A stretch of DNA of 64,000 nt. Origin: Halonotius pteroides (GTDB lineage Archaea; Halobacteriota; Halobacteria; Halobacteriales; Haloferacaceae). Below the pieces are notes generated by a model, which saw nothing but the letters and a program-made list of their open reading frames with translations, made no database searches and was not told the DNA's origin. Position numbers and translations under genes: made by a program. The stretch is from positions 124,001-188,000 of the forward strand of contig NZ_QMDW01000002.1 in the NCBI RefSeq assembly GCF_003605635.1, written 5' to 3'. Shown here one piece after another: positions 6,151 to 59,445 of this stretch (position 1 is its first letter; each line of letters starts with the position of its first letter).

Positions 6151-6222
6151 CCGAGCGTCAGCGGCGTGGTGCGGCTGTTTTCGGAGCGATACGTCTATGG
6201 GCGGTGCGGCCAACGATCCGGT

Positions 6223-7209
6223 ATGTCATTTACGCCGACTGACCGGCCACGCCGTCTCCGCACCGACGGCATCCGTCCGCTAGTGCGGGAGACAACGGTG
6301 GATGCACAGGATCTCATCGCACCCGTTTTTGTCGATGAGACAACCGACGAGCGTGTCCCGATCAGCTCGATGCCAGGCCACGAGCGTGTCCCTGTCGACG
6401 AGGCCGCCGCCCGCGTCGAAGAGATTCAAGAAACCGGTGTCGAAGCCGTCATGATCTTCGGGGTTCCCGACACGAAAGACGAGGTCGGCAGCGAGGCCTA
6501 CGCCGCGGATGGCGTCGTCCAGCGGGGGATCCAGGCAGTCACCGAAAACACCGACGCCTACGTCATCGGCGATGTCTGTCTCTGTGAGTACACCGACCAC
6601 GGTCACTGCGGTGTGCTTGAACCACACGCCCACGACGATCCGACGCTGACCGTCAAAAACGACGACACCCTGGAGCTGCTGGCCGATGTCGCCGTCTCAC
6701 AGGCCGAGGCCGGCGCGGATATGGTCGCCCCATCCAGTATGACCGACGGGATGGTTGGAGCGATCAGGACAGCGCTTGACAGCGCTGGTTTTGAGCAGAT
6801 TCCGATCATGAGCTACGCCGCAAAGTACGAATCCTCATTCTATGGGCCGTTCCGCGAAGCCGCCGACGGCGCGCCAGCGTTCGGCGACCGACGACACTAC
6901 CAGATGGATCCCGCAAACCGGCGGGAAGCCCACCGCGAGGTCGCCATTGATGCCGAGGAAGGCGCGGATGTGTTGATGGTGAAACCCGCCTTGCCGTATC
7001 TCGATATCGTCCGCGACGTACGGGAAAGCGCCGACAAGCCGGTCGCTGCATACAACGTCTCCGGCGAATACGCGATGATTCACGCGGCCGCCGAAAAGGG
7101 CTGGTTGGATCTCGAAGCCACAGCGTATGAATCGCTGCTGAGCATCAAACGCGCGGGTGCGGATCTGATCGTGACCTACTTTGCCGAGGATATCGCCGGG
7201 CGGTTGTAG
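6223..7209 (+). CDS. hemB: Delta-aminolevulinic acid dehydratase (porphobilinogen synthase)
   Basis: A 328-residue enzyme that condenses two 5-aminolevulinate molecules to porphobilinogen in haem and cobalamin synthesis. Visible signatures are the zinc-binding [14 protein letters not shown], the Schiff-base lysine in [14 protein letters not shown] and the second active-site lysine in [12 protein letters not shown]. Length is normal for the family. The start is placed at ATG 6223 ([13 protein letters not shown]); the upstream in-frame extension reads through the intergenic region and is not family-like. Confidence 0.97.
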
Positions 7210-7292
7210 TCGGTCGCCCGCGAGGTGGGCTGTGCACACACGTAGCACAGCCGGGGTAACGCCATACCCACGCCCAGTGTCAGTCAGCGTGT

Positions 7293-7460
7293 ATGAGCGA
7301 GACACCAATCAGCGAGGATGAGGCACCGAACTGCGCAGTCTGTAGCGAATCAATCACAGCCCTCCCGACCAACCGTGTGATTGCAACGACAGGCGACGAC
7401 GGTGAGGTCAGCTACAACCACTTCTGTTCGGCAAGCTGTGAGTCGTCGTATCACACCTAA
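7293..7460 (+). CDS. Small zinc-finger-like protein (DUF7576-like)
   Basis: A 55-residue protein with two cysteine pairs, NCAVCSESI near residue 14 and HFCSASCES near residue 46, typical of a small treble-clef or zinc-ribbon protein. It looks like a known haloarchaeal family (DUF7576 from memory). It is 83 bases past hemB. The role is unknown; it may bind RNA or protein. Confidence 0.72.
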   Translation: MSETPISEDEAPNCAVCSESITALPTNRVIATTGDDGEVSYNHFCSASCESSYHT

Positions 7461-7515
7461 ATGTCGGACGACGCGATTGTTGAACTGGCCGGCTACTCGG
7501 TGAGCGACGCCGTTT

Positions 7516-7944
7516 TCACTCCTCGGTGATCGTCTCGCCGTATTCCTCGGGGTCAAGCTCGCCCTGATGAAGCCTCGCGCCGTCCTTCGCAACTTGGTTG
7601 CCCAACACAGCACAGGGGATCCGCATCGGCGAGATTGTCACGCCGAGCATATCGGTGATATCGTCAGTTTCGAGATTCTCTAGTTCTTCGAGGGTCATCC
7701 CGACAAGCTGCTCCGAGAGCATGCTCGCCGAAGCCTGTGAGATAGCACAGCCATCGCCAGTGAAGCTGACGTATTCGATCTCCTCGTTGCTCTCATCGAG
7801 TTTTACGTCCATCTGAATCGTGTCGCCACAAGAGGGGTTTTCGCCGGTGTGGCTGAAATCCGGATCCTCAAGTTCCCCGTAGTTTCGGGGGCTCTTGTAG
7901 TGGTCGAGGATCTGCTGTCGATACATGTCAGAGCCTGTTCCCAT
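7516..7944 (-). CDS. sufU: SufU/IscU-like iron-sulfur cluster assembly protein
   Basis: A 142-residue protein of the IscU/SufU fold. The three conserved cysteines are visible: NPSCGD with the adjacent Asp, GCAIS and IPCAVLGNQ. An insertion of about 19 residues before the third Cys (ELENLETDDITDMLG region) marks the SufU subtype rather than IscU. SufU proteins bind zinc and relay sulfur from the SufS desulfurase to SufBCD. No suf operon is present here. Start ATG 7944; an in-frame ATG six codons later (MYRQQ) is an alternative. Confidence 0.92.
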   Translation of the reverse strand: MGTGSDMYRQQILDHYKSPRNYGELEDPDFSHTGENPSCGDTIQMDVKLDESNEEIEYVSFTGDGCAISQASASMLSEQLVGMTLEELENLETDDITDMLGVTISPMRIPCAVLGNQVAKDGARLHQGELDPEEYGETITEE

Positions 7945-8223: not shown

Positions 8224-8646
8224 TCACTTGCTGGGTCGTTCTTTGATATGGGGACGACTGTCGTGAGATTCACGCTGGCCCAAGAGCTGTTTGATAACCA
8301 CCCCAACAGCGAGAATAATACCACTAACCAGGGTAAACAGCCCTCCGAAGAAGACGCCGCCGGCTGTAGAAGCATACAGCGCGTATAGACTCGTCGCTGC
8401 CAGCCACAGGGTTACTACGCTAAGTATTCCAACCACAGCTGAGCTGATAGAGATCCCATCACGGATCGTCACAACGAGCGTGATACATCCGAGTATGCCT
8501 GGGGCAACAAGTTCCGGGTTGATTGGGACGGCTCCAAGCGTTGGCCATGTTGGGTACGGTTGTGGCAGTGGAGAGAACGTAATGATGGCGATCAAAACAA
8601 CGCCTACGGCAGCAACAACTTGGCTCACGCGGAGGAGCCCATTCAT
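8224..8646 (-). CDS. Small haloarchaeal membrane protein, unknown function
   Basis: About 140 residues with four hydrophobic segments and a short charged C-terminus (GQRESHDSRPHIKERPSK). ATG 8646 (MNGLLRVSQVV) is chosen because a TATA-like element (ATTTATGAT read on the minus strand, 8671-8679) lies about 29 bases upstream and would give a nearly leaderless mRNA. A longer frame to 8745 would run through that promoter. No functional motif is seen. The 279 bases between it and sufU hold nothing I can identify. Confidence 0.6.
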   Translation of the reverse strand: MNGLLRVSQVVAAVGVVLIAIITFSPLPQPYPTWPTLGAVPINPELVAPGILGCITLVVTIRDGISISSAVVGILSVVTLWLAATSLYALYASTAGGVFFGGLFTLVSGIILAVGVVIKQLLGQRESHDSRPHIKERPSK

Positions 8647-8797
8647 ATCGATTAACTGACCGGACATAGTATCATAAATCCTGCCTCTCGCAAGTAGAAG
8701 GGCCACATGGTCGAGCAGCGGTACGTCATCGATCTCAGATGGCATACCCGCTTCCGTCAGCTACCGTCGACACCGTCCTGTGGTGAAGGAGTTATAC

Positions 8798-8816
8798 AGA
8801 CCTAGGCTTTAGGTCT
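8798..8816. promoter_or_regulatory. Perfect 7-bp inverted repeat at kinase promoter
   Basis: AGACCTA-GGCTT-TAGGTCT lies between a TATA-like gttataca (8791-8798) and the kinase ATG at 8823. It overlaps the metal-regulator-like box at 8809-8822. The position, on the expected transcription start, fits a repressor operator. Confidence 0.5.
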
Positions 8817-8822
8817 CCCTAA
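8809..8822 (+). promoter_or_regulatory. DtxR/IdeR-type metal-regulator box (TTAGG-N4-CCTAA)
   Basis: The sequence is TTAGGTCTCCCTAA, ending on the base before the ATG of the histidine kinase. It has the same 5+4+5 inverted-repeat architecture as the boxes at 56956 and 57024. Binding here would block transcription initiation. The link to iron is inferred from the known DtxR-family consensus. Confidence 0.55.
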
Positions 8823-10061
8823 ATGAGAGGGGAAGTTGAGCAGCTTGTTGGGATACTATTTCGGACTCTCGCTGAGGAAGGCTATACAGAGGCCCAAACA
8901 GCCCTTTTAGATACATATCAGTCCAAAGCAGATACTGACAGAGAGGAACTTGCCGAAGAGCTCTTTGTCGAAGTCGTGACCAATCTGAGTTACCATCTTG
9001 AGACTGAAACGGAGGTTGAGGTTCTCGTCACAGCGATCGAACAGCTCCTAAGTTGGTTCTCAAGTCTCGTTGAGGCAGCACCCGTCGCGATTCTGGCCGT
9101 CGAGACAGACGGACAAATTGAGTTTTGGAACGACGGTGCTGAGAGAGTGTTTGGCTGGAGTAAATCTGAAGTTCACCAACGGCCGTATCAGGACGTGTTC
9201 GCGGCCTCGTCGGATGAGATGGAGCCACATCTTGCGCAACTGCAGGACGGAAAGCAACTTACCGGCCTTGAGACGCAGCATCAGCACAAAGATGGATCGA
9301 TTCGTGACGTACGGATCTGGGCAGCCCCGTTTCGCACACGTCATGAACGGTTTGAGGGAGCAACGTTCGTAATAAGCGACGTTACTGAACAAAAACAACG
9401 CGAACAACGTCTGTCCGTTCTCAACAGGGTGCTGCGGCACAATATCCGAACAGACGTAAATATTATTCACGGCCACCTGAACCAGTTGGCCGAGACTGTT
9501 GATGATACGACCGAACATCTGCGAGTGATGGAAGATCGGCTCTCCAATATTATCCAGCTGAGCGACGCCGCGCGGCATATTGAGCAGTTGCGCGACGAAG
9601 GCGAGGACGGCCTGACGACGATTGAGTTGGAATCTGTGATACAGGAGCGTGTGACCCGACTGCGGAAGGAATCGGCGAATGCAACGATTAGAACCACACT
9701 CGCGGAATCGACCGCCGTCGTAGCACACGAGTTATTGCCATATGCACTGGATAATATCTTAGACAACGCGTTAGAGCACAATGACGCAGAAACCCCGTTA
9801 GTTGAGATTGCCGTGTCGACAGGAGAAACCGCCGCCAGTGGACAGACGACCGTGAGTGTGGCTGATAACGGCCCTGGGCTCCCCGATCATGAACAAGCGG
9901 TGCTTACCTCCGAGGAGGAAACGCAACTCAACCACAGTAGTGGGCTAGGGCTGTGGTTGACTCGGTGGATTGTTCGAAATTCAAGCGGCACCCTCTCAGT
10001 TAATAAGAGCACGTGGGGTGGAACTCGAATAGAGATCCGGTTGCCGACACAAACAAGCTAG
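8823..10061 (+). CDS. PAS-domain sensor histidine kinase with a DUF7551-like N-terminal domain
   Basis: A 412-residue soluble kinase with no membrane segments. Residues 1-70 form a helical domain (LFRTLAEEGYTEAQTA) resembling the central domain of the gene at 55871-56887. Residues about 78-190 are a PAS domain (APVAILAVETDGQIEFWND). The phospho-acceptor helix is VLNRVLRHNIRTDVN. The ATPase domain has an N box (DNILDNALEHND), a G1 box (VADNGPGLPD) and a G2 box (SSGLGLWLTRWI). No response regulator is adjacent, as is usual in haloarchaea. The metal-regulator-like box upstream suggests metal-dependent expression; the PAS ligand is unknown. Confidence 0.9.
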   Translation: MRGEVEQLVGILFRTLAEEGYTEAQTALLDTYQSKADTDREELAEELFVEVVTNLSYHLETETEVEVLVTAIEQLLSWFSSLVEAAPVAILAVETDGQIEFWNDGAERVFGWSKSEVHQRPYQDVFAASSDEMEPHLAQLQDGKQLTGLETQHQHKDGSIRDVRIWAAPFRTRHERFEGATFVISDVTEQKQREQRLSVLNRVLRHNIRTDVNIIHGHLNQLAETVDDTTEHLRVMEDRLSNIIQLSDAARHIEQLRDEGEDGLTTIELESVIQERVTRLRKESANATIRTTLAESTAVVAHELLPYALDNILDNALEHNDAETPLVEIAVSTGETAASGQTTVSVADNGPGLPDHEQAVLTSEEETQLNHSSGLGLWLTRWIVRNSSGTLSVNKSTWGGTRIEIRLPTQTS

Positions 10062-55870: not shown

Positions 55871-56887
55871 TCACGGACACCCCGGCGCATCGTCGGCAAC
55901 CGACGCACTCACCAGGCCGCGAGGTGCGGCTTCACCGACTGGGACAACGCGAAACCGCCAACCTGTTGGGCGTGTCGCAACATCGACCGCAACCGGCTGC
56001 CAGTCGGTAGCCATCCGGTACAACTCGATCACGACCGGTAATGTCGGTAGCTGGCCGCCGTACGGCGAAAACGCGTAGCCGGCAACCGCGATGAGTACGG
56101 CCCGCGTCCCGGTTGATCGGTGCTGGAGCCACGGGGAGTCATGGTACGCCCCAACAACCCCCTGTTCCTGAAGCCGGTCAAACACCGCTGTCACCGTGGT
56201 CACGTTGGTCTCTGTGGCGGTGGCGTCGGCAGCGGATGGCAGCCGATCGGCAGCCGCCGCCATCACCGCGGCCTGGTCGCAAGGAGACAGCCGGGTCGAC
56301 AACACTGTCGCCATACTTTCCAGTAGTCGAAGACAGAGGCCGTCAGCTGTCGACTGCTCCTCGGCATGGTCAAGATAGGCGTCCATCACAGCCGTTTCGG
56401 CTGTATCGTACCCCTCGGCAGCCAATGTCTCGAAGACCGCGGCGGCGACATGATGGCAAAACTGCACGAGCGGACGGGTGGCTGTCGTCGCCCCCGAGGC
56501 GGGGTCAGTTGTAGCAGAACGCCACGGGGCTCTGTCACACCCATCTGCTGTTGGGTGGTCATCTGCGTCGTCGGTGGAGGATGTCGTCGCGTCAGCGGTG
56601 GTCGTCGCTGTGTGTGACTGCCCGGCAAGCGGCTCAACTGTCGAGGGGTAGCCCTGACAGACAACGATATCATGTTGCGGGAGCGTCGGATCGTACTGCC
56701 GGAGGGCGTTGCGGTACTGTGTTGTCGCACGTGCGGCTGTCCGGGCGATCTGGCGGGTCGGAAACCACAACCCGGCAGCCGGCACCGGCTGCTCGGCGTG
56801 GCGACTACAGACGAGTGTGTACTCGCCGTCGTCGACTGCGAGCGATTCGATATGGGCGCGAAGGTCACGGAGCATGGGGCCAAGCAT
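55871..56887 (-). CDS. Unknown haloarchaeal protein (DUF7551/7552-like) with domain shared with a histidine kinase
   Basis: A 338-residue soluble protein. Residues 1-80 form one domain (MLRDLRAHIESLAVDDGEYT to DIVVCQGYP), followed by a Thr/Asp-rich linker to about 140. Residues 141-210 (VFETLAAEGYDTAETAVMDA) resemble the N-terminal domain of the kinase at 8823. The C-terminal part has FDRLQEQGVVGAYHD. It is divergent from the copper lipoprotein gene, with three DtxR-type boxes between them. I recall such proteins as a haloarchaeal DUF without assigned function; metal regulation is inferred. Confidence 0.75.
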   Translation of the reverse strand: MLGPMLRDLRAHIESLAVDDGEYTLVCSRHAEQPVPAAGLWFPTRQIARTAARATTQYRNALRQYDPTLPQHDIVVCQGYPSTVEPLAGQSHTATTTADATTSSTDDADDHPTADGCDRAPWRSATTDPASGATTATRPLVQFCHHVAAAVFETLAAEGYDTAETAVMDAYLDHAEEQSTADGLCLRLLESMATVLSTRLSPCDQAAVMAAAADRLPSAADATATETNVTTVTAVFDRLQEQGVVGAYHDSPWLQHRSTGTRAVLIAVAGYAFSPYGGQLPTLPVVIELYRMATDWQPVAVDVATRPTGWRFRVVPVGEAAPRGLVSASVADDAPGCP

Positions 56888-56955: not shown

Positions 56956-56969
56956 TTAGGTTAGCCTAA
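56956..56969. promoter_or_regulatory. DtxR/IdeR-type box 1
   Basis: TTAGGTTAGCCTAA, a perfect match to the TTAGG-N4-CCTAA arrangement and to the left part of the bacterial DtxR consensus. It is 69 bases upstream of the divergent gene at 56887. Confidence 0.8.
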
Positions 56970-57023: not shown

Positions 57024-57037
57024 TTAGGTTGGCCTAA
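57024..57037. promoter_or_regulatory. DtxR/IdeR-type box 3
   Basis: TTAGGTTGGCCTAA ends five bases before ATG 57043 and would cover the transcription start of the copper lipoprotein gene. The TATA-like tcttattg (57014-57021) lies just upstream. Confidence 0.8.
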
Positions 57038-57042
57038 ATTCT

Positions 57043-59445
57043 ATGGCACACTCACGACGGCGGCTGTTGCAGACGACAGGCACAGTACTTGCAAGCGCGG
57101 CTCTCGCCGGCTGTAGCAGTACCGACAATCAGGCCGACAGCGGTGGCGAAGCGTCGATCGCAGCGGCCGACCTTGGCGTCGTTGCCGAATGGAACGCGAT
57201 CCGCACCCGACTCCGTGATCCCGTGATCCTTGGGCACGCTGAGGAGTACGCTGCGGGTGAAGGCGTCGTCGGCGACATCTTTGAGCGGTTTGAGATGGCG
57301 TCAGGACAGAACAATGCTCACGAGACCCTTGAGGAAACCGACAAAGAGCACTACGAGGGGTTCGAAACCGCATTGGGCGACCTCCGGAGCGCGCTTACGG
57401 ACAATGATCTCGATGGGGCCCACGATGCGATGAGAGCGGCTGATGAACAGCTTCGCGGCGCGCAGGCCGCACTCGCCGGCCAGGAGACGGTCAAACAGCT
57501 TACCGCGCTCGTAATGGGTGCACATATCAAAGACGTTGAGGTGCTTCTCGCCGCGGAGGCGTACGACGACGCCAGCCTTGAGTACAACCAGATCGGAACC
57601 AAATTCCAACAAAAGGGGCTGTACGATATGATCGCTGCGGCTGACACTGAAGCTGCGGATGGGGTTGTCGACGCTCTTGATCGGGCGGCAACTGCTGCCG
57701 AGGCGGCAAACGCAACCGACGCTTCAGCTGCCGGTTCGGACGCGTTTGAGGCGGCAACACAGGGGTTGCATGCGGTCGCGAACGCCAACGTCGCCGACGC
57801 CGCCCACATGGCTGCCCTACAGGGGTTGGGCTGGGATGCGGCCGCGCTGACGACAATCGGTGGCCCCGGTACCGATTACGCACACGCTGCCGCATTGAAC
57901 CTGTATCGTGCACGCGCCTACGACGCACACTGGATCGCAGCCAACGGCAGCACCGACACAGCGGCGACGATGGCACGCGATGTGTTCGCTCACTTTGAGG
58001 GGGCCCGTACACACGAAGCGCTAGAGGAGGCAGACCGCGACGCCTATGAAACGTTCGAGGCCGGACTTGAATCGCTACAGACCAGGATCGACGACGGCGA
58101 TACCGGCGGGATCGACGACGCTGTTGCAACCATCGATGAAAATCTCCGTACCGGAATCAAGCGCCTTGCTGGCGGCGACGCCCCGCTGCTGCAATCCGGA
58201 TTTTTCCGTGCTCGCTTTGCGGATGCGTATGAACGCTACCGGCAGGGCGAAGCGGCCGCGGCGGCGACGATCGCTGAGGGGCTCTTCGGGCGGTTTGAGG
58301 CGAACGAGCTGAACTTCCACGAAACACTTGAGGACACAAGCGAGTCGCTGTATGAAACCTTCGAGGAGGAACACCTGACCGCACTCGTCACCGCCTACGA
58401 AGACGACAACAGCAGCGCGGTCGACACCCACCATCAGGGCGTGTGTGACGCGCTCCTCGAGTTTGAAGCCGAACACAGCGCGGCGCTTGCAAGCGGTGCG
58501 GAAGCCGGTTACATGGGGGCTCGTGGCTTCGATGCCGCCGGCGTCGCCGCCCTCGGGGATGCCAGCCGAGCGAGCACGATCGTCAGCGACGCCTTCGCCC
58601 ACTTTGAGAACGGGGCTGCCGGGTATCACGAGGCCATCGAGGCAGCCGATGTGGAACGCTACGAGTCATTTGAGGCCGCTCTCGGGGCGATTCAGACAGC
58701 AGTTGACGACGGCGGCGACGTGTACGCCAATGCAAAAGCGTTCAACGACGAGGCCGTCGCCTCCGCGTACGCGATCGCTGAATCTGGGGGTGCAACCGCA
58801 CCCGCTGCGGCGATGATGGGTGATGCCTTCGCCCACTTCGAACAAGCCGAGGTACACGAGGCACTGGAAGAAGCCGATCATGATACCTATGAGGGCTTTG
58901 AGGCCGCACTTAACTCTTATCAGTCCGGCCTTGAGTCAGGAGACACTGAGCCGGTAGCGCGGTATGCCGCGATGGCCCGTACCGGTGGGTTCGCTGTCGC
59001 CGGCGCGGTCGACGCCGCGCCGTCCGTTGACGCCGCGGCTGCTGATGACGGAGGAGAGGCCGAGGAATCAGCCTACGAGGGCGGGCCGAACATTGTCGAG
59101 GGCGTTCCTGACGACGCCGACCACGTCGTTGAAGCACAGGCCGTCGTCTTTGAGCCGGCGGAGCTGACAGTACAGCAGGGTGAGACGGTTGCCTGGAAGT
59201 ACGCTGCTGGAGACGCACACAACGTTGTCGCCGACGAGGACAAGATCCCGGACGACGCAGAGTACTGGGCTTCCGGCGGGTTCGACAGCGAAATGGCCGC
59301 CAGAGACGGCTGGGAGAACGGTAAGGGGGCTCTCCACCGCTCGGAACAGGTGTACGTCCACACCTTCGAGGCAGCCGGCACACACGAGTATCTCTGTGTC
59401 CCACACGAGGCCGCCGGAATGGTCGGCAAGGTCATCGTCGAATAG
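57043..59445 (+). CDS. Tat-exported lipoprotein with five His/Glu repeats and C-terminal blue-copper domain (DUF5059-like)
   Basis: An 800-residue surface protein. The Tat signal SRRRLLQTTGTVLASAALAG ends at a lipobox Cys, residue 24. Five repeats begin near residues 78, 313, 413, 516 and 594, each with the pattern FxxFE...HExLExxD...YExFExxL (for example HEALEEADRDAYETFEAGL). Residues 685-800 are a plastocyanin/halocyanin fold with copper ligands in DAHNVVAD and YLCVPHEAAGM (His, Cys, His, Met). I believe the repeat region is DUF5059. Three metal-regulator boxes at its promoter point to iron- or manganese-dependent control. A role in metal capture or oxidation is inference. Confidence 0.9.
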   Translation: MAHSRRRLLQTTGTVLASAALAGCSSTDNQADSGGEASIAAADLGVVAEWNAIRTRLRDPVILGHAEEYAAGEGVVGDIFERFEMASGQNNAHETLEETDKEHYEGFETALGDLRSALTDNDLDGAHDAMRAADEQLRGAQAALAGQETVKQLTALVMGAHIKDVEVLLAAEAYDDASLEYNQIGTKFQQKGLYDMIAAADTEAADGVVDALDRAATAAEAANATDASAAGSDAFEAATQGLHAVANANVADAAHMAALQGLGWDAAALTTIGGPGTDYAHAAALNLYRARAYDAHWIAANGSTDTAATMARDVFAHFEGARTHEALEEADRDAYETFEAGLESLQTRIDDGDTGGIDDAVATIDENLRTGIKRLAGGDAPLLQSGFFRARFADAYERYRQGEAAAAATIAEGLFGRFEANELNFHETLEDTSESLYETFEEEHLTALVTAYEDDNSSAVDTHHQGVCDALLEFEAEHSAALASGAEAGYMGARGFDAAGVAALGDASRASTIVSDAFAHFENGAAGYHEAIEAADVERYESFEAALGAIQTAVDDGGDVYANAKAFNDEAVASAYAIAESGGATAPAAAMMGDAFAHFEQAEVHEALEEADHDTYEGFEAALNSYQSGLESGDTEPVARYAAMARTGGFAVAGAVDAAPSVDAAAADDGGEAEESAYEGGPNIVEGVPDDADHVVEAQAVVFEPAELTVQQGETVAWKYAAGDAHNVVADEDKIPDDAEYWASGGFDSEMAARDGWENGKGALHRSEQVYVHTFEAAGTHEYLCVPHEAAGMVGKVIVE

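Follow-up and report, generated by a model that had tools for sequence, protein, structure and literature searches.

Architecture of the kinase

The window (the whole 64-kb stretch of DNA analysed) encodes a cytosolic histidine kinase, differentiated into four regions—an N-terminal half-DUF7551 domain, a PAS domain, a DHp region and a HATPase domain—and, some 48 kb away, a divergent pair of genes for a DUF7552/DUF7551 protein and a DUF5059 lipoprotein (Table 1). The four N-terminal helices of the modelled kinase span residues 4–19, 22–34, 40–58 and 61–85, and no transmembrane segment is apparent in the model or in the profile matches. The HATPase_c profile is matched at E 6e-15. H206, N315 and D348–G350 are invariant in 22/22 aligned kinases, and the catalytic core (His206, N-box and G-box) is, judged from the residues present, complete.

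Table 1 Features of the kinase locus and of the DUF7551/DUF5059 locus, in window coordinates.
Feature	Position	Strand	Remark
TTATAC, TATA-like hexamer	8792–8797	+	−31 to −26 from kinase ATG
Exact iron box TTAGGTCTCCCTAA	8809–8822	+	−14 to −1 of kinase ATG (ATG at 8823)
Cytosolic histidine kinase, 412 aa	8823–10061	+	Half-DUF7551, PAS, DHp, HATPase
N-terminal four-helix domain	8832–9050	+	Residues 4–76; homologous to first half of DUF7551
PAS domain	9060–9383	+	Residues 80–187
Codon of phospho-acceptor His206	9438–9440	+	Invariant; RHNIRxD
HATPase_c	9741–10052	+	Residues 307–410; N-box Asn315 and G-box D348–G350 invariant
DUF7552 + DUF7551 protein, 338 aa	55871–56887	−	
Full DUF7551 domain	55898–56470	−	Residues 140–330; first half is the part common with the kinase
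Exact iron box	56956–56969	+	Between divergent DUF7551 and DUF5059 genes
Iron box with one mismatch, TTTGGTCGGCCTAA	56988–57001	+	
Exact iron box	57024–57037	+	5 nt 5′ of DUF5059 start codon
DUF5059 lipoprotein	57043–59445	+	C-terminal plastocyanin-type copper domain

A fold search with the kinase was taken up by its kinase and PAS domains, whose solved relatives are ordinary kinases, and is uninformative on its N terminus. In its PAS domain, RHNIRND H-box, N-box and G-box the protein resembles the soluble PAS-HisKA-HATPase kinases of haloarchaea; what sets it apart from them is the added half-DUF7551 domain, together with the iron box that adjoins its start codon. None of the inspected neighbour proteins of the kinase loci, which are partly annotated, could be recognised as a response regulator. 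Haloarchaea commonly have orphan kinases, and to our knowledge few of these have a known input. The PAS domain also carries an HxH pair (residues 153 and 155; window 9279–9287), conserved in 95% and 82% of the kinases, respectively; the pair may bind a ligand or a metal, or may be no more than the usual PAS motif.

A palindromic box abuts the kinase start codon

The palindrome TTAGGN4CCTAA, which we call the iron box, occurs in three exact copies in the window (8809, 56956 and 57024), with a fourth site at one mismatch (56988); in first-order Markov sequences matched for composition, exact copies come to 0.003 per 64 kb. The first copy ends at the base before the kinase ATG, bearing out the original prediction that this start is directly preceded by the same box as the sites 48 kb away. 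Across the 3.0-Mb genome there are 11 exact boxes versus 2 matches to a reversed control pattern, and nine other haloarchaeal genomes hold 10–28 versus 0–1. With one mismatch allowed, the genome-wide count of the box pattern (20 sites) falls below that of the reversed control (58), and we therefore disregard degenerate boxes.

TATA-like stretches lie ~26–40 nt 5′ of the ATG in many kinase orthologues, the spacing expected of leaderless haloarchaeal transcripts, which places the box over the initiation region. The kinase transcript would thus probably be leaderless, its 5′ end overlapping or abutting the box.

The box is conserved at kinase orthologues

Searching with kinase residues 1–97 (E below 1e-10) gave 23 orthologues when 293 genomes of the order were covered; the family added another 13, making 36 with the window kinase counted in. 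An exact box precedes 33/36 of these haloarchaeal genes, at −15 or −14, ending directly at the ATG or 1 nt before it; the box had been expected at orthologues in other genomes, and it is far from missing in most. Two more have a box with one mismatch (L037 and L045, the latter gene being seemingly truncated or shifted). The remaining one (L031/L103, genome G224) has no box of its own and lies downstream of a boxed DUF7551–DUF7260 pair, with which it is probably co-transcribed across a 328-nt gap. Mean pairwise identity among the orthologues, excluding two genes at G224 and G260, is 75% within the box versus 31% at −70 to −21. A search of genome contigs with the full-length kinase returned one true orthologue (box at −15) and ten relatives lacking the N-terminal domain. 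These ten Haloferax and Halogeometricum kinases, matching only the PAS and catalytic part, serve as negative controls; no exact box was found within the surrounding 10–17 kb.

The conservation bears on two trivial readings of the palindrome. Matches with two mismatches occur in the window at chance level, which might suggest that the palindrome too is a chance occurrence, but exact boxes are far above chance and the conservation across orthologues rules this out; we give it practically no credence. Alternatively, the box might serve the divergent upstream gene (8224–8745), whose start lies 63 bp from it, and be near the kinase merely by position. This is contradicted by upstream genes that vary among genera while the box keeps its place before the kinase, which argues that the box belongs with the kinase and makes ownership by the divergent gene highly improbable.

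The box is most probably the haloarchaeal iron operator

Archaeal iron control is usually described via DtxR-family repressors alone, and the haloarchaeal members include Idr1 and Idr2 in Halobacterium and TroR, Idr and SirR in Haloferax volcanii. Leyn and Rodionov (2015) reportedly gave the FerR signal of the haloarchaeal DtxR-family iron regulon, and Martinez Pastor (2024) is said to deal with the published haloarchaeal operator.

Boxes in the source genome adjoin an Fe(III)-type ABC transporter (FbpA/B/C-type binding protein, permease and ATPase, at three separate sites), a Gluconate_2-dh3/GMC oxidoreductase pair, a short gene next to dpsA and the DUF7551/DUF5059 pair. In relatives' genomes, where gene names were read from sequence except for those assigned by profile scan, the box stands 5′ of genes for FhuD-type binding proteins, FecE-type ATPases, DpsA, DtxR-family proteins and a siderophore synthetase resembling IucA. 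Haloferax massiliensis has 28 boxes, beside which lie at least 8 FhuD-type genes, FbpA, DpsA, a DtxR gene and a DUF7551 gene. In Hfx. volcanii every fhu gene lies behind a ferR signal (PMC11349517), matching the box 5′ of fhu-type genes in Hfx. massiliensis.

Together, the iron genes at the box and the published fhu/ferR statement indicate that the box is most probably the known haloarchaeal iron operator, equated with it by the genes behind it rather than by motif letters. The source genome encodes two DtxR-family genes (PF02742, above cut-off), and a protein of this family is most likely the direct regulator. The regulon thus resembles the haloarchaeal DtxR-type iron regulons in its gene kinds (FhuD, siderophore synthesis, DpsA and DtxR) but differs in having a histidine kinase as a member: for haloarchaeal iron-regulated kinases, a literature search that stopped short of the operator-defining papers found nothing relevant and no such member described.

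The kinase N terminus is half of a DUF7551 domain

The kinase and the 55871–56887 protein carry similar peptides, FRTLAEEGYTEAQTA in the former (residues 13–27) and FETLAAEGYDTAETA in the latter (residues 152–166), and pairwise BLASTP aligns the two proteins at 36% over 58 residues. Pfam DUF7551 (PF24420) matches kinase residues 9–77 at E 7e-7; the score of 29.9 bits lies below the Pfam cut-off of 52.6, and the same profile matches 22/22 aligned kinases (best E 5e-15). The expected resemblance of the kinase N terminus to the middle of the distant protein is thus real, and a profile–profile comparison of the kinases with 31 DUF7551 proteins (hhalign) was likewise significant (probability 95.7%, E 1e-8, 70 columns at 31% identity, kinase residues 7–76). 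Its register places the four kinase helices one-to-one on DUF7551 helices 139–157, 161–177, 181–199 and 202–215 of an independent model.

Domain sharing holds for the first half only. The kinase match stops at position 79 of the 187 in the PF24420 profile, where the PAS domain follows, and the C-terminal α/β half is absent. Despite having the same four helices as the DUF7551/DUF7552 proteins, the kinase has neither that second half nor DUF7552, and the almost invariant Cys144-His145 and Cys185 of DUF7551 are missing; the half-domain shows no conserved Cys, no strongly conserved His and no Cys/His metal site. Lacking these residues and the DUF7551 second half, it is unlikely to bind or sense metal directly.

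The kinase N-terminal domain was not found in the plasmid collection searched, and a literature search on DUF7551 found nothing relevant. A third candidate DUF7551 match in the source genome (E 0.2) was rejected as chance, the protein being a Gluconate_2-dh3.

Gene context and co-occurrence

In the window, the kinase lies two genes from an IscU-type scaffold gene (IscU/NifU_N, 7516–7944) and near hemB (ALA dehydratase, 6166–7209); these upstream genes (6166–7944) carry no boxes. Two other genomes place the kinase beside DUF7551 and DUF7260: in G052 (L097) the row reads box, DUF7551, DUF7260, DtxR, NifU-like, box, kinase, and in G224 (L103) it reads box, DUF7551, DUF7260, kinase. A further locus has the kinase near dpsA (G242), and the remainder mostly have unrelated neighbours. 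The DUF7551–DUF7260–DtxR row is itself recurrent (L097/L154, L140, L150, L054, L063 and L071), often preceded by a box and followed by an amphi-Trp-like or NifU-like gene, which suggests that DUF7551 and DUF7260 act together with the DtxR-family regulator.

The co-occurrence check envisaged in the original prediction came out positive, with kinship ignored in both comparisons. DUF5059 is present in 15/23 kinase genomes versus 55/270 without the kinase (Fisher p 1e-5), and a full DUF7551 in 21/23 versus 129/270 (p 4e-5). Because DUF5059 is missing from 8/23 kinase genomes and a full DUF7551 gene from 2/23, neither can be an essential partner. The kinase, limited to 23/293 genomes of the order, is itself accessory.

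A plastocyanin-type copper protein fused to DUF5059 under an iron box (window 57024–59445) is an observation in its own right; the boxed protein is perhaps an iron-starvation cupredoxin, either swapping copper for iron or acting as a ferroxidase-like uptake lipoprotein.

A probable kinase branch of the iron regulon

On the strength of these comparisons, we consider it likely that the kinase is a member of the DtxR-type iron regulon and at the same time a working half-DUF7551 kinase. An iron-loaded DtxR-family repressor would bind TTAGG-N4-CCTAA between the TATA element and the leaderless start, blocking initiation. Scarce iron would release it, and the kinase would be made with siderophore and iron importers, the DUF5059 lipoprotein and the DUF7551 protein. 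The soluble kinase would then sense or dock via its four-helix half-DUF7551 domain, with the PAS domain; the half-domain would most likely bind the DUF7551/DUF7552 protein or partners thereof. Acting by phosphorylation through a response regulator encoded elsewhere, the kinase would put a second, post-translational layer on the iron response. We infer the DtxR-family binder, repression by iron, the docking partner and the kinase output, and taken alone the docking and output steps are rather doubtful.

A plainer account is that the kinase is a mere target of iron economy: a general-purpose PAS kinase, induced when iron is low, that signals redox, oxygen, light or the like, with its half-DUF7551 serving as a dimerization or linker helix bundle. 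The ordinary PAS domain and catalytic core agree with this, as do the varied kinase neighbours and a half-domain devoid of DUF7551's conserved Cys/His. Yet that half-domain is the most distinctive trait of the family and goes with the box in nearly all orthologues, the kinase co-occurs above chance with the DUF7551 and DUF5059 genes, and in two genomes it lies beside DUF7551/DUF7260. We take this account as a serious possibility without favouring it.

Giving the kinase control of the whole iron regulon, as its dedicated sensor, is very unlikely. It has an operator and a domain in common with the regulon, and is linked to a DtxR gene in L097; however, boxes and iron genes occur in many genomes without the kinase, and Hfx. 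massiliensis, for all its boxes, has as its nearest kinase found one without the half-domain. The original proposal of one undescribed regulon with a dedicated sensor therefore survives in its shared operator and domain, but the regulon is an iron regulon of the DtxR type that is already known; the kinase would rank among the genes it regulates, and the direct regulator is most likely a DtxR-family protein.

The preferred reading, a regulon member with a half-DUF7551 input, would make the kinase family a seemingly undescribed arm by which the known iron response of haloarchaea signals, given its iron box and the half domain common with a regulon protein. While the DtxR-type regulon itself is already known, new here are the conserved membership of the kinase, the half-DUF7551 domain at its input end, the linkage of DUF7551 to DUF7260 and DtxR, and a weak fold likeness for DUF7551 (below). 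That dozens of species keep an iron box at one fixed base position before this kinase suggests that the iron response has a phospho-signalling arm, and it offers a handle on orphan haloarchaeal kinases; three uncharacterized Pfam families (DUF7551, DUF7552 and DUF7260) are also tied to iron regulation.

A fold lead for DUF7551

The DUF7551 model (mean pLDDT 81) has no significant Foldseek match (H-NOX at E 0.19). A second structural alignment (VIA) returned mostly H-NOX domains (guanylate-cyclase and bacterial), TRAPP Bet3 and V4R, with Z of ~6–7.8 over ~100–160 residues; the top match has Z 7.8 (159 residues, rmsd 4.4), and Z <8 may mean a common arrangement. Pfam H-NOX, V4R and TRAPP found no match in 31 DUF7551 members at E 10. 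The C-terminal half has no conserved heme-ligating His; the sole His kept in at least half of the members, H145, lies in the first helix. We regard the modelled resemblance to the H-NOX/TRAPP/V4R superfamily fold as a weak lead, not as membership.

In bacteria, H-NOX with an associated histidine kinase mediates nitric-oxide signalling. The haloarchaeal proteins are reminiscent of this arrangement in that the model of full DUF7551 resembles H-NOX and in that DUF7551 and the kinase stand in one gene row in L103, but they differ in that DUF7551 has no sequence-profile match and no conserved C-terminal heme-ligating His. It is conceivable, if unlikely, that DUF7551, encoded along with DUF7260 and DtxR, serves the iron regulon as a ligand sensor with an H-NOX/TRAPP/V4R fold, and that the kinase half-fold pairs with it, so that a signal from iron, heme or NO is relayed as phosphorylation. 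Were this so, haloarchaea would have a two-component layer that works on the DtxR switch itself or alongside it.

Further boxed sites

Two exact boxes stand 20 nt apart elsewhere in the source genome (G000:C27:10441–10488; L013:9442–9489). Behind them no gene of more than 57 aa was found for several hundred bases, only a 23-codon micro-ORF, and an apparent tRNA-Val (tRNA-like by sequence) lies ~110 nt after the pair. In G275 a double box (L153:1983 and 2017) lies by the adenosyltransferase gene that also adjoins the source-genome pair, there 5′ of a 77-aa protein. The site in the source genome is possibly that of an iron-regulated small RNA or a relic.

Glycosyltransferase-like genes lie beside the boxed Fe(III)-type transporter of the source genome, and an RGP-like glycosyltransferase gene adjoins the boxed FbpA-type gene in several genera (G000:C39:92108–93416, L148, L152, L170 and L179); we read this side observation as glycosylation genes riding with iron uptake.
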